This document shows, one piece after another, positions 60,542 through 63,727 of a stretch of 64,000 nt of DNA; within the stretch, counting starts at the first letter, position 1, and the number at the start of each line of letters is the position of its first letter. The position numbers and the translations under genes were made by a program. Source of the DNA: an uncultured Clostridia bacterium (GTDB lineage Bacteria > Bacillota > Clostridia > Oscillospirales > Acutalibacteraceae). The notes beneath the pieces are model-generated. The model saw only the letters and a program-made list of their open reading frames with translations, made no database searches and was not told where the DNA came from. The stretch covers positions 1 to 64,000 of the forward strand of contig CAMCHQ010000007.1 in the NCBI GenBank assembly GCA_945874765.1, read 5' to 3'.

Positions 60542-60578
60542 AAAGGGATTAGATATTTAAAATATCTAATCCCTTTTT
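60542..60578. terminator. Bidirectional terminator between convergent genes
   Basis: Perfect 15-bp stem AAAGGGATTAGATAT / ATATCTAATCCCTTT (60542-60556, 60562-60576) with T/A tracts. It also ends the cobalamin operon on the minus strand. Confidence 0.92.
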
Positions 60579-60696: not shown

Positions 60697-62040
60697 TTAT
60701 TTAGTCTTAACAGATTTAACCTTAGACCAAGATGAATATACCTTAACGCTCTTGCCGTTTACCTTTGCATTCTTATATGTACGAACACGAACGTAATAAG
60801 TCTTTTTAGCCTTTAAGCCTTTAAATGACTTAGAAGTTGTCTTGTTGCCCTTAATTGAATATGTTGAGGTTTCTCTTGAGAATTTCTTTGAAGTTGAAAT
60901 CTGAATCTGATAACCTGATACGCCTGTTACCTTTTTCCAGCTTGCCTTAAAGCCTTTCTTTGCCTTTGAAAGCTTCTTGATTGAAACGCTCTTTTGCTTC
61001 TTGTTTACATAGCTGCCGTCCTTAGCATATGTTGCAGCCTTAGTTGTAGGCTTCTTTGTAGGAGCGGTAGTAGTTGTGGTTGTTGTTGCGTCATAATCCT
61101 CTTTAGCCTTAAGTGCGTCATAGAAATACATAAGACCTGTGAGTGCGTCTGCTGTTGCTGTTTTGTTTTCGCTTTTATCGTCAGCTGTGAAATAGTAAGC
61201 GCCCTTTGTATCTTTACATTCAAATGTTGAAAGGTCGCTGTAAATCTGCTGTGCCTTATCAAGATTGCCGGCAGTAGAATAAGCGGCAAGTGCAAGACCT
61301 GTTGAATCGGCGTTTACCTTAGTATCAAAATTATAAAGATAGCCGCCGTCTTTCTTGAAGTTTTCAATTGAAGCAAGCGCATCATCTACAAATGACTGAT
61401 AACCTGCATACGGAGCAATAGCAACCACAAACTGAGATGTACTGTCTGTGCTTGTGTAATATGTTGAACCTGTACCGAATTCATAGTAATTGTTTACAAG
61501 GAAGTTTTGAGCTTTCTTGAGATAATCTTTAAGACCGTACTTGTTAGCTACAGTAAAGATTGAAGAGAAGAGGTACTGATTTTCATTATCCTTAACGAGT
61601 TTAAGATTTTCAAATGCAGATACAATATCATAGCCCTCAAAGCTCTTTGCATTATAACCTAAGCTGTCAAGTGCTAAAATAACGTTTGCATAAACGCCTG
61701 CCGATTCATTTTTGATAGGAGCCCAGCCGTTATTTTCGTCATATCCTACAACTGTAACAATCTTACCGCCGTTTGAATCGAGGTTTTCCTTAACGCTCTT
61801 TGCAAATTCTTCTTTATAGTCGCTCATATTTACGCCTGCACGTACAAAAGCGTTAAAGTTCTTAACGTTGTCAACTGTGAAGCCTGTCTTTTTAACAGAC
61901 ATAAGATATGTTGCGCTTTCGTTGATTTTTGTTTTAACGTCACTGCTTGTTACTTTGCTGTCTGCCATTGCATAAATCCCTGTGAAAAGAGACGTCAATG
62001 CAACACAAATTGCAACTGTAACTGAAATTAATTTTTTCAT
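60697..62040 (-). CDS. Secreted alpha-alpha toroid (prenyltransferase/terpenoid-cyclase-fold) protein with FN3 tail; intrinsic-factor alpha-domain-like
   Basis: A 447-residue exported protein. Residues 1-27 are a signal peptide (MKKLISVTVAICVALTSL.. AMA). Residues about 30-320 are repeated helix pairs (YLMSVKKTG, YANVILALDSLGY, LALAAYSTAGNL, ALTGLMYFYDAL), the alpha-alpha toroid pattern shared by prenyltransferases and the alpha domain of intrinsic factor. A Thr/Lys-rich linker (about 320-345) leads to an FN3 module (355-447) ending YYVRVRTYK...WSKVKSVKTK, close to the tail of the GH25 protein at 43.9 kb. It lies 24 bp after the DUF4430 lipoprotein under a cobalamin riboswitch. I infer a corrinoid-binding surface protein; no enzymatic motif is seen. 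Confidence 0.7.
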   Translation of the reverse strand: MKKLISVTVAICVALTSLFTGIYAMADSKVTSSDVKTKINESATYLMSVKKTGFTVDNVKNFNAFVRAGVNMSDYKEEFAKSVKENLDSNGGKIVTVVGYDENNGWAPIKNESAGVYANVILALDSLGYNAKSFEGYDIVSAFENLKLVKDNENQYLFSSIFTVANKYGLKDYLKKAQNFLVNNYYEFGTGSTYYTSTDSTSQFVVAIAPYAGYQSFVDDALASIENFKKDGGYLYNFDTKVNADSTGLALAAYSTAGNLDKAQQIYSDLSTFECKDTKGAYYFTADDKSENKTATADALTGLMYFYDALKAKEDYDATTTTTTTAPTKKPTTKAATYAKDGSYVNKKQKSVSIKKLSKAKKGFKASWKKVTGVSGYQIQISTSKKFSRETSTYSIKGNKTTSKSFKGLKAKKTYYVRVRTYKNAKVNGKSVKVYSSWSKVKSVKTK

Positions 62041-62064
62041 ATTTATTAACCTCCTAATATGAAA

Positions 62065-62907
62065 TTATTTTTTATATGAACAGGTGTATGTAAATACAAC
62101 CTTATCACCGTCTTTAAGCTTTTTTGAATCTACGCTTATATTTGGATATTTGCCGTTGACATTATACATCCAACCGCTTTGCTTGCCGCAGTCAAATTCG
62201 TCAATGTTATTTATCCCGACAATATAAACACTATACATCGTATCCTTTGCAGTATAGGTTATGCCTTTATCATTACACGCTTTTTTCAGCAAATCGTAAA
62301 CCGTGCTGCCGCTTTTAAGGGTGGTTTTGTAATTTTCAAGCATAATTCCGTTTTTTGGAACATAGCTTTCGTGCCCTTTTTTCAAATCGTCCATATTATC
62401 AAGAATAGATTTACATTCAATGGTAATTGAACAGTTGATTTCCGACGAAGTGGTATGGGTTACTTTGCCGTTATTTTCTTTTGGGGAAGTTGTTTTCGGC
62501 TTGTCCGCCTTAGCTTCTATGGCTGATTTTTCAGCTTCGGTCTTTACATATTTCTTTTTATCTTTAGAATTATTTTTTGAATTGCTGCTTGATTTTTTCG
62601 CGGCAGTAGTTTCTTTATTATCTTTTTTTGAAACCGACTTAGCAGTAGTTGAGGTCTTTTCGCCTTTTTTGGTTGTTTCTTTTTTTGCTTTTTCCTTGTC
62701 TGCTTTTTTCTTTTCTGCCTTTGTAATTTGAGCCTCGGTTGCCGTTACCGTTACTTCTCCGGCGTCCGTCGTCTGCTCACTCGAAGTTGATGAGGTAATG
62801 CCCGTGCTCTCCGGCACAGCACTGTTTTGACCGTTTGAGCAGGCACAAAACAAGGTGAGGCTCAATATTATTGATATTAAAACGCATAAATATTTGCGCA
62901 TACGCAT
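62065..62907 (-). CDS. DUF4430 (transcobalamin-like) lipoprotein
   Basis: A 280-residue lipoprotein. The signal peptide ends at a lipobox-like LFCAC, with Cys23 as the likely lipidated residue. A Lys/Thr/Ser-rich, low-complexity linker (about 30-150) spans the wall. The C-terminal domain (about 155-280) is DUF4430, related to the beta domain of transcobalamin and intrinsic factor: GSTVYDLLKKAC, then YIVGINNIDEFDCGKQSG, WMYNVNGKYPN, and DGDKVVFTYTC. ATG at 62907 is chosen because the GTG at 62925 overlaps the GGAGG site 8 bp upstream. It is first after the cobalamin riboswitch, so corrinoid binding at the cell surface is the likely role. Confidence 0.82.
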   Translation of the reverse strand: MRMRKYLCVLISIILSLTLFCACSNGQNSAVPESTGITSSTSSEQTTDAGEVTVTATEAQITKAEKKKADKEKAKKETTKKGEKTSTTAKSVSKKDNKETTAAKKSSSNSKNNSKDKKKYVKTEAEKSAIEAKADKPKTTSPKENNGKVTHTTSSEINCSITIECKSILDNMDDLKKGHESYVPKNGIMLENYKTTLKSGSTVYDLLKKACNDKGITYTAKDTMYSVYIVGINNIDEFDCGKQSGWMYNVNGKYPNISVDSKKLKDGDKVVFTYTCSYKK

Positions 62908-62915
62908 AAAAAAAT

Positions 62916-62937
62916 CCTCCGTCACTTAGGACAGAGG
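62916..62937 (-). promoter_or_regulatory. Hairpin that sequesters the DUF4430 ribosome site
   Basis: Minus strand CCTCTGTC - CTAAGT - GACGGAGG: all eight positions pair (one G-T wobble), and the right arm contains the Shine-Dalgarno GGAGG. It is the natural expression platform for the riboswitch upstream, acting on translation. Confidence 0.7.
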
Positions 62938-63165
62938 AAACGGCGCAACAATAGTACGGACTTTTAAATCATTGCTTTCCCTTGCCCAAAAGCTGAATTT
63001 AAATTTGCGGCAGGTCTCCCGACTTATGATATAGCTAAGCGTGAAAAATCGCCTTCTCGGTTTCCCAATGGCTGATGATTTTCCTTCATCAAATACGGTA
63101 ATGGCTGTTGCTTGGGATTCTGACCCAATTCCCTTTTAATTTCTCGCAAAGGAGAAAACCGTCTT
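62938..63165 (-). promoter_or_regulatory. Cobalamin riboswitch
   Basis: Minus strand leader. The B12 box AAGTCGGGAGACCTGCCGC lies at plus 63007-63025, matching the conserved AGYCAGGAGACCTGCC. Upstream, AAAAGGGAAT-x-GGGTCAGAATCCC and GCAACAGCCATTACCGTA are the conserved core segments (around 63080-63145). Downstream GGGAAAGCAA and TTGTTGC-x-TTTCC can pair as the peripheral stem. The whole leader of about 240 nt precedes the DUF4430 gene. Cobalamin binding is expected to lower expression of the two surface proteins. Confidence 0.88.
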
Positions 63166-63172
63166 TTATTTA

Positions 63173-63201
63173 ATTATATATAATTTATTATTTTTCGTAA
63201 A
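63173..63201 (-). promoter_or_regulatory. Promoter of the cobalamin-controlled operon
   Basis: Minus strand TTTACG, 17 bp, TATAAT (63196-63201, 63173-63178). The -35 lies inside the last codons of hpt, so the operon is packed against it. Confidence 0.5.
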
Positions 63202-63727
63202 TGCTCTTTTTAAGAACACCGATATACGGCAAGTTACGGTAATACTGGTCATAGTCAAGACCGTAGCCGACAACGAAAGCGTCAGGCACATCGGTACCCA
63301 CATAGTCAGCCTTGATATCCGCAACACGTCTTGCCGGTTTATCAAGAAGAGTGACAACGCCGATAGATTCGGGGTTGCGCTTAGAAAGCATATCGTGAAT
63401 ATATTTAAGCGTATTGCCGGTATCGAGAATATCCTCAACAAGCAAAACGTCAAATCCTGTCAAATCATCTGCAATATCCTTAATAATATTGATATTACCG
63501 CTTGAAACGGTACCCGAGCCGTAGCTTGAAGCCTGAATAAAGTCAATATTGCAAGGCAAGTCGATATATCTTGTAAGGTCTGTAAAAAAGTAAATCGAGC
63601 CTTTAAGAACTCCTACGAGCAAAAGCTTTTTGCCCTCATAATCCTTAGTAATCTGCGCTGCCAAACGATGTGCGATTTTGTTAAGCTCTTCCTCTGTTAC
63701 GAGTATCTTTTCAACATCCTGATGCAT
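63188..63727 (-). CDS. hpt: Hypoxanthine phosphoribosyltransferase
   Basis: A 179-residue purine-salvage enzyme joining hypoxanthine or guanine to PRPP. The PRPP-binding motif VLLVEDILDTGNTL (about 100-113), the early LLVGVLKGSIYFFTDL, the FIQASSYGSGTVSSG flexible loop and the LLDKPARR end are intact. GAGAGAGG ribosome site. It has its own promoter, ahead of the cobalamin operon. Confidence 0.96.
   Translation of the reverse strand: MHQDVEKILVTEEELNKIAHRLAAQITKDYEGKKLLLVGVLKGSIYFFTDLTRYIDLPCNIDFIQASSYGSGTVSSGNINIIKDIADDLTGFDVLLVEDILDTGNTLKYIHDMLSKRNPESIGVVTLLDKPARRVADIKADYVGTDVPDAFVVGYGLDYDQYYRNLPYIGVLKKSIYEK

Follow-up and report, generated by a model that had tools for sequence, protein, structure and literature searches.

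A two-gene operon led by a cobalamin riboswitch lies on the minus strand (63178-60697) of a 64,000-nucleotide stretch of DNA, the window below, from an uncultured Clostridia bacterium of the family Acutalibacteraceae (GenBank assembly GCA_945874765.1, contig CAMCHQ010000007.1, positions 1 to 64,000), and it very probably serves the acquisition of corrinoids. The riboswitch aptamer is followed by two genes, 24 bp apart, for a DUF4430-domain lipoprotein and an alpha/alpha-toroid protein with the marks of secretion; the two proteins probably bind corrinoid jointly and serve an importer of the energy-coupling factor (ECF) type. A preliminary description of this DNA had proposed surface capture of corrinoids by such a pair. 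Conserved linkage to cobalamin riboswitches, relatives with both halves in one chain and ECF neighbours of the CbrT kind now speak for that proposal, the idea of which was largely in print in 2007.

The operon is proposed to be a capture module induced by corrinoid scarcity. Ample adenosyl- or other cobalamin would lead the riboswitch to favour a hairpin that ends transcription and hides the Shine-Dalgarno sequence; under corrinoid scarcity, both proteins would be made. The toroid protein would be secreted and probably held at the wall or surface by its FN3-like tail, with the DUF4430 protein lipid-anchored in the membrane. We infer that corrinoid would be bound by both and clamped between the beta-grasp domain as lid and the cavity of the toroid, in the manner of the two domains of intrinsic factor and transcobalamin, and then handed to the CbrT-like S-component of an ECF T-A-S transporter; BtuR would adenosylate the imported corrinoid, and the methionine synthase MetH would use its methyl form. 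The riboswitch, the gene order, the domain families, the linkage, the one-chain relatives, the lack of FecCD and CbiC matches and the ECF, BtuR and MetH genes were obtained by computation, and export signals were read by eye.

Linkage of cobalamin riboswitches to DUF4430 and toroid genes

The cobalamin riboswitch earlier read in the leader was borne out by Rfam: the RF00174 match covers the full-length aptamer (model positions 1-189) and scores 88.3 bits where 31.5 is the gathering score, and nothing else in the 64-kb window reaches an Rfam gathering threshold. To place it in context, 38 genomes of the same genus, each at least 95% complete, were scanned for RF00174 and DUF4430. Forty cobalamin riboswitches were found in 37 of the 38 genomes and 42 DUF4430 domains, also in 37 of 38; for 37 of the 40 riboswitches a DUF4430 or toroid gene is no more than 6 kb away, and 28 of the 42 DUF4430 domains have a riboswitch at such a distance. 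By the author's estimate, a density of about two such genes in 2 Mb would lead to fewer than one chance link among the 40 riboswitches.

The linked riboswitches fall into several arrangements. Eleven have both DUF4430 and toroid downstream, nine the toroid only and seven DUF4430 only, five of these last in single open reading frames (ORFs) of 1226-1396 aa; three more have a toroid downstream and a divergent DUF4430, and seven a divergent DUF4430 only, for two of which (G002 and G079) a toroid was later found downstream. As for the three unlinked riboswitches, one in the window genome (contig C14) and one in G028 (C9) precede members of a single secreted-protein family, and in G072 the next ORF runs off the contig end. 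With 37 of 40 linked, the cobalamin riboswitch comes close to marking the DUF4430/toroid module in this genus, and the pairing under B12 riboswitches that had been put forward for survey is conserved.

The toroid protein as query led to the same association. It matched in 76 of 80 genus genomes, in many of them through the FN3 tail only, and a scan of genome contigs likewise brought mostly FN3 tails (L037 and L038 repeat L025 and L034), its most informative locus being L059, from an Emergencia genome. Among the 29 same-genus loci, 28 were scanned for the riboswitch (L019, with FN3 only, was left out), and it was present in 23. When the window toroid was aligned with 27 genus toroid loci (alignment A1), a DUF4430 gene lay directly upstream in 13 of the 27; in nine the toroid stands behind an N-terminal domain that, read by eye from the sequence and a model, may be a beta-grasp, and L014 shows both arrangements. 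Neither partner was found in six, among them L011, which is broken by a stop and lies near a contig end.

Beyond the genus, the A1 profile matched 40 of 297 genomes of the order, in 23 of 136 genera and mostly weakly. Twenty-seven of these loci were read (L199-L225, of which L199 and L225 belong to the genus); DUF4430 was found in the same ORF or within the locus of about 3.5 kb in 18 of the 27, an ECF T gene in four of the 27 and a cobalamin riboswitch in five of the 20 scanned. Some of the order-wide proteins bear S-layer domains, and in L210 toroid, DUF4430 and S-layer form one chain. Relatives carry toroid and DUF4430 either as neighbours or fused.

Other proteins were noted behind these riboswitches. 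The second cobalamin riboswitch of the window genome (C14:9435-9640) precedes an 803-aa secreted protein (L004:6969-9380, minus strand) with atrophied immunoglobulin (Ig), carboxypeptidase-regulatory/PEGA-like and FN3 matches and no toroid or DUF4430 match; its homologue (1e-222) follows the second riboswitch of G028 (L126:1881-4175, plus strand). An HNH-repeat ORF stands between riboswitch and next genes in three loci (L059:1462-2535, L127:2100-2375 and L129:5757-6038); PF18780 matched in L059 and L129, and L127 is alike by appearance. Giant secreted proteins of 1386, 1255 and 2615 aa are encoded downstream of genus riboswitches at L128:2058-6215, L129:2008-5772 and L143:1-7191, respectively. 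Each has Glug domains and one DUF4430 domain, two have atrophied Ig domains, and the 2615-aa protein also holds a toroid.

Corrinoid supply in the window organism and its congeners

The window genome is 99% complete. A search for CbiC, the one enzyme of corrin synthesis tested, gave no match in it and matched in seven of 14 control genomes; the organism probably makes no B12. It encodes a B12-dependent methionine synthase (MetH) together with a separate activation-domain protein. Because the FecCD permease family had no match in the window genome, BtuC is considered to be missing, and BtuCDF was rejected as the importer; the same search was positive in 13 of the 14 control genomes.

On contig C1, outside the window, genes for BtuR, ECF T, a double ATPase A and an S-component stand in a run. 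The best match of the S-component in the PDB was 6FNP (E=1.7e-9; 6.6e-12 with a 13-row profile), which is ECF-CbrT, a vitamin B12 transporter according to the parts of the source drawn on here (PMC5997447). The genome probably holds a corrinoid transporter, a CbrT-like ECF system. The preliminary statement that the window has none stands in that the T-A-S operon is not at the window locus, and is amended by this probable transporter elsewhere in the genome. An S-component was matched in 34 of the 38 genus genomes, and in the 20 such loci that were read T, A and S were present in all 20, with BtuR directly 5' of T in seven.

ECF genes are contiguous with DUF4430 or toroid genes in the congener G033 and in the Emergencia locus L059; the window locus has no such neighbours. 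In the G033 arrangement, the gene for a DUF4430 lipoprotein immediately precedes ECF T and an A-S ORF, and the riboswitch, divergent from these genes, leads into the giant ORF with DUF4430 and toroid. The Emergencia run opens with the riboswitch and an HNH-repeat ORF, continues with genes for ECF T, A and S, and closes with a toroid, DUF4430, a second DUF4430-like protein that at 22.7 bits falls slightly short of the cut-off, and a further toroid. As a separate observation, ATPase and S-component of G033 apparently share one open frame (L143:9520-12000, 913 aa), and a comparably long frame (820 aa) holds the S match on contig C99 of G036.

T components of the CbiQ type also serve cobalt and other vitamins, and the pair might accordingly bind some other scarce molecule (cobalt, haem or another tetrapyrrole, or a glycoprotein of the host) that the riboswitch would report indirectly. 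Another metabolite was indeed suggested for archaeal members in the sections drawn on here of an earlier study of such proteins (Burroughs, Balaji, Iyer and Aravind, 2007; PMC1796856). The genes of the window organism make this explanation very unlikely: the lack of a CbiC match suggests that the organism would need corrinoid and not cobalt, the S-component resembles CbrT, and BtuR lies beside the ECF genes both in the window genome and in the seven loci above.

The operon, its leader and its two proteins

The features of the operon are collected in Table 1. Although the first gene as listed opens with GTG at 62925, the ATG at 62907 is the more likely start, since the GGAGG-bearing hairpin of the leader ends 7 nt before it. 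The N-terminus of the product, MRMRKYLCVLISIILSLTLFCAC, was read by eye as a lipoprotein signal in accordance with the lipobox consensus, and PF14478 was matched at residues 206-281 of the longer (GTG) reading with E=4.2e-21 (75.6 bits against a gathering score of 23.8), both in agreement with the DUF4430 lipoprotein first described.

Table 1. Features of the riboswitch operon and its flanks, in window coordinates
Feature	Position	Strand	Evidence
Cobalamin riboswitch aptamer, RF00174	62992..63178	-	Rfam 88.3 bits, E=1.8e-20, model 1-189
Expression-platform hairpin, 9 bp, then seven U, then start codon; GGAGG in 3' arm	62915..62938	-	
DUF4430 lipoprotein gene, ATG 62907, 280 aa; signal, Lys/Ser/Thr-rich linker, C-terminal DUF4430	62065..62907	-	
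DUF4430 domain (transcobalamin-type beta-grasp)	62083..62310	-	PF14478 4.2e-21
Secreted toroid protein with FN3-like tail, 447 aa	60697..62040	-	
Alpha/alpha-toroid domain, residues ~32-321	61078..61947	-	Model pLDDT mostly >90, Foldseek, profile match
C-terminal FN3-like domain, residues ~354-446	60703..60981	-	24 bits against cut-off 25; strands in model
Terminator-like 16-bp hairpin 3' of operon	60542..60576	-	
Candidate sigma-70 promoter TTTACG-17-TATAAT, overlaps 5' end of Rfam match	63173..63201	-	10/12 positions matched

In the window leader a U-run follows the hairpin at 62938-62915, in the 3' arm of which the Shine-Dalgarno GGAGG is buried, so that the one hairpin would act as both terminator and sequesterer. 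Folding of the leader as a whole was not statistically unusual (z of only -1.44, with 15 of 200 shuffles as good), and the case for the hairpin therefore rests on its recurrence in relatives. By script, a hairpin with a T-rich tail was found in 23 of 25 leaders; in the two misses (L008 and L032) the script had chosen an ATG inside the hairpin, which was visible in both on reading. All 12 leaders in which a toroid or longer fused gene comes first have a separate terminator hairpin, with Shine-Dalgarno and ATG 18-35 nt later. Among the DUF4430-first leaders, the ATG lies 4-8 nt past the hairpin in nine of the 11 where the script found one (in L029 it is 49 nt past, and in L021 no start was found), and in the same nine a Shine-Dalgarno-like G-rich stretch was read in the 3' arm; here a single hairpin would both end transcription and hide the ribosome site. 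When ten such hairpins were aligned by hand, several outer pairs were seen to differ in both partners, one position showing A-T, T-A, C-G and G-C. Repression of the operon by corrinoid is inferred from how riboswitches of the cobalamin class usually act.

The N-terminus of the second gene product reads, again by eye, as a signal peptide. An AlphaFold2 model of the protein, built with 27 relatives, has a mean pLDDT (predicted local distance difference test) of 83.8, with helices at 32-321 and a beta-sandwich at 354-446. Pfam gave no domain for the helical part, and the only match of note on the protein was fn3 (E=4.6e-5, 24 bits, just under the 25-bit cut-off); the eukaryotic cobalamin-binding family was not matched up to E=1. 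Foldseek matched the model to alpha/alpha-toroid proteins and its tail to FN3 proteins. The best 50 matches for this model and for that of a relative with a longer chain include terpene cyclases, prenyltransferases, thioester-domain proteins, other toroids and FN3 proteins. The signal peptide, the general toroid fold and the FN3-like tail are consistent with the secreted toroid of the preliminary description; of its further assignment to the intrinsic-factor alpha domain, the general alpha/alpha-toroid fold was upheld, and intrinsic factor itself was not among the 50 matches listed for either model.

A profile of the order-wide toroids (A5), which align with the window toroid family at 99.6% probability, matched squalene-hopene cyclases in the PDB at 1e-13; only through these relatives is the window toroid tied by sequence to the toroids of terpene cyclases. 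This match, together with the terpene cyclases among the listed Foldseek matches, would suit a secreted enzyme, akin to squalene-hopene cyclases or prenyltransferases, that is controlled by B12 for metabolic reasons. DxDD is a catalytic motif of such cyclases. At the site aligned with it, however, the window family has mostly S-C-D-N and the wider family mostly D-x-D-I/L/V; with acidic residues lost, a catalytic terpene cyclase was judged unlikely. The signal peptides moreover place the toroid outside the cell, and an enzyme would leave the DUF4430 partnership and the cobalamin riboswitches without explanation, which together make this alternative scarcely credible.

Upstream of the operon, a phosphoribosyltransferase gene (hpt-like, window 63188-63727) has its stop codon 9 bp before the aptamer, and the riboswitch may for that reason also receive read-through from it. 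Transcription of the operon could be driven by the promoter-like sequence at 63201-63173; it is a weak candidate, as a scan of the region gave 10 such sites against 9.2 expected from shuffles.

Proposed joint binding and its relation to known systems

Several observations weigh against joint corrinoid capture as the function of the module. With respect to linkage, 14 of the 42 DUF4430 domains in the 38 genomes have no riboswitch within 6 kb; at eight of nine DUF4430 lipoprotein loci away from a riboswitch (L134-L142) the gene adjoins a conserved ORF with the motif YDIAGLRV or near variants; and no riboswitch was found in five of the 28 toroid-query loci (L011, L014, L015, L018 and L031), some of which are cut by contig or locus ends, that of L014 sitting just beyond the scanned stretch. 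G042, G073 and G076 have a DUF4430-toroid pair with no riboswitch match nearby, and because of such pairs the confidence placed in joint binding was lowered very slightly. The ECF operon of the window genome bears no cobalamin riboswitch, and four of the 38 genus genomes gave no S-component match. As for the proteins, the N-terminal domain of the longer toroid relatives has no Pfam match and is modelled with modest confidence. Searches of the PDB with the window toroid, by phmmer or profile, gave no credible match and neither intrinsic factor nor transcobalamin; profile A5 likewise found neither, with no intrinsic factor up to E=10; and neither intrinsic factor nor transcobalamin is among the 50 Foldseek matches listed per model. 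The DUF4430 profile does have gastric intrinsic factor as its top match in the PDB, but at E=0.17. Finally, the window toroid reads T-S-T-D-S at 61441-61455, where G196, C198 and N200, kept in 25-27 of 28 aligned toroid rows, are replaced by T, T and S beside the invariant D199; the change is a possible sign of altered ligand preference.

Some of these points would also fit a reading in which the DUF4430 lipoprotein alone binds corrinoid, as receptor of the ECF transporter, and the toroid is co-regulated for another surface role such as adhesion, wall attachment or lipid or glycan binding. The lost motif residues of the window toroid, the order-wide toroids nearest to terpene cyclases in PDB sequence, the DUF4430 lipoproteins found apart from toroids in several genomes and the DUF4430 gene of G033, which lies directly 5' of ECF T with no separate toroid gene, are in keeping with it. 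It nevertheless appears unlikely, given that toroid and DUF4430 are adjacent or in one ORF in 18 of the 27 order-wide loci and adjacent in 13 of the 27 genus loci, and that toroids, alone or in fused ORFs, directly follow the riboswitch in many genomes.

Joint binding by both proteins is thus preferred. The S-component of an ECF transporter is held to be its own receptor. It is tentatively suggested, with somewhat less than even confidence, that an ECF importer has here gained an external two-piece binding protein, a lipid-anchored lid and a separately exported toroid cup that would need to meet in order to close on a cobamide; the cup might serve as a corrinophore, bound to the wall or even released. 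If so, this could be the main answer of the genus to a missing B12 importer. The riboswitch, the external capture pair, the CbrT-like ECF transporter and BtuR together make a testable candidate module in a Clostridia genus and, if correct, a route to finding unseen B12 capture genes.

For comparison with earlier work, DUF4430 is assumed here to be the transcobalamin-clade SLBB domain of the 2007 study. In the sections of that study drawn on here, exported beta-grasp (SLBB) domains of the transcobalamin type and alpha/alpha toroids were described in Gram-positive bacteria, including fusions and second paralogous SLBB proteins; B12 scavenging was proposed for hosts that usually lack key B12-synthesis enzymes, operons with CbiO/CbiQ-type genes were reported, and animals were proposed to have taken their carrier from Gram-positive bacteria (Burroughs et al., 2007; PMC1796856). 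The window pair resembles these systems as an exported DUF4430 protein and toroid in a host with no CbiC match; it differs in that its halves are separate genes, one of them for a lipoprotein, behind a cobalamin riboswitch, and that its ECF genes are at another locus with an S-component that matches CbrT. The word riboswitch is absent from the main text of PMC1796856. As far as the sections drawn on go, the general idea was already predicted there, and what is added here is riboswitch control, the split form and the link to CbrT. Among the open-literature papers that searches brought up, none, as judged by titles and abstract openings, links DUF4430 or transcobalamin-like bacterial proteins to a cobalamin riboswitch, which is weak evidence of absence.

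In animals, intrinsic factor and transcobalamin hold a toroid and a beta-grasp domain in one chain, with cobalamin between them. Like these carriers and haptocorrin, the window pair combines a toroid with a DUF4430-type beta-grasp outside the cell; unlike them, it consists of two proteins from neighbouring genes, and its toroid matches neither the eukaryotic cobalamin-binding Pfam family nor the sequence of any solved intrinsic factor. For the toroid, intrinsic factor does not stand out in searches by sequence or by fold, and the likeness is kept to function: on present evidence the pair would work like a split intrinsic factor, and membership of that family is not supported by the searches. 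If this is true, bacteria and animals catch B12 with the same two kinds of domain, split and in one chain, which bears on the 2007 proposal of where the animal carrier arose.

The fold of BtuG, a surface lipoprotein of Bacteroides, is not known to be related to those of the window pair. In the parts of the sources drawn on here, BtuG takes B12 from intrinsic factor (PMC6143338), and BtuG and BtuH, like the DUF4430 protein as proposed, are surface lipoproteins that catch B12 for uptake; they serve the outer-membrane transporter BtuB (PMC6143338, PMC8941943). The closest counterpart on the side of the importer, within the portion of its description used here, is the ECF-CbrT of Lactobacillus delbrueckii (PMC5997447), to which the S-component of the window genome is homologous by its match to 6FNP, and to which the window organism would add external capture proteins.

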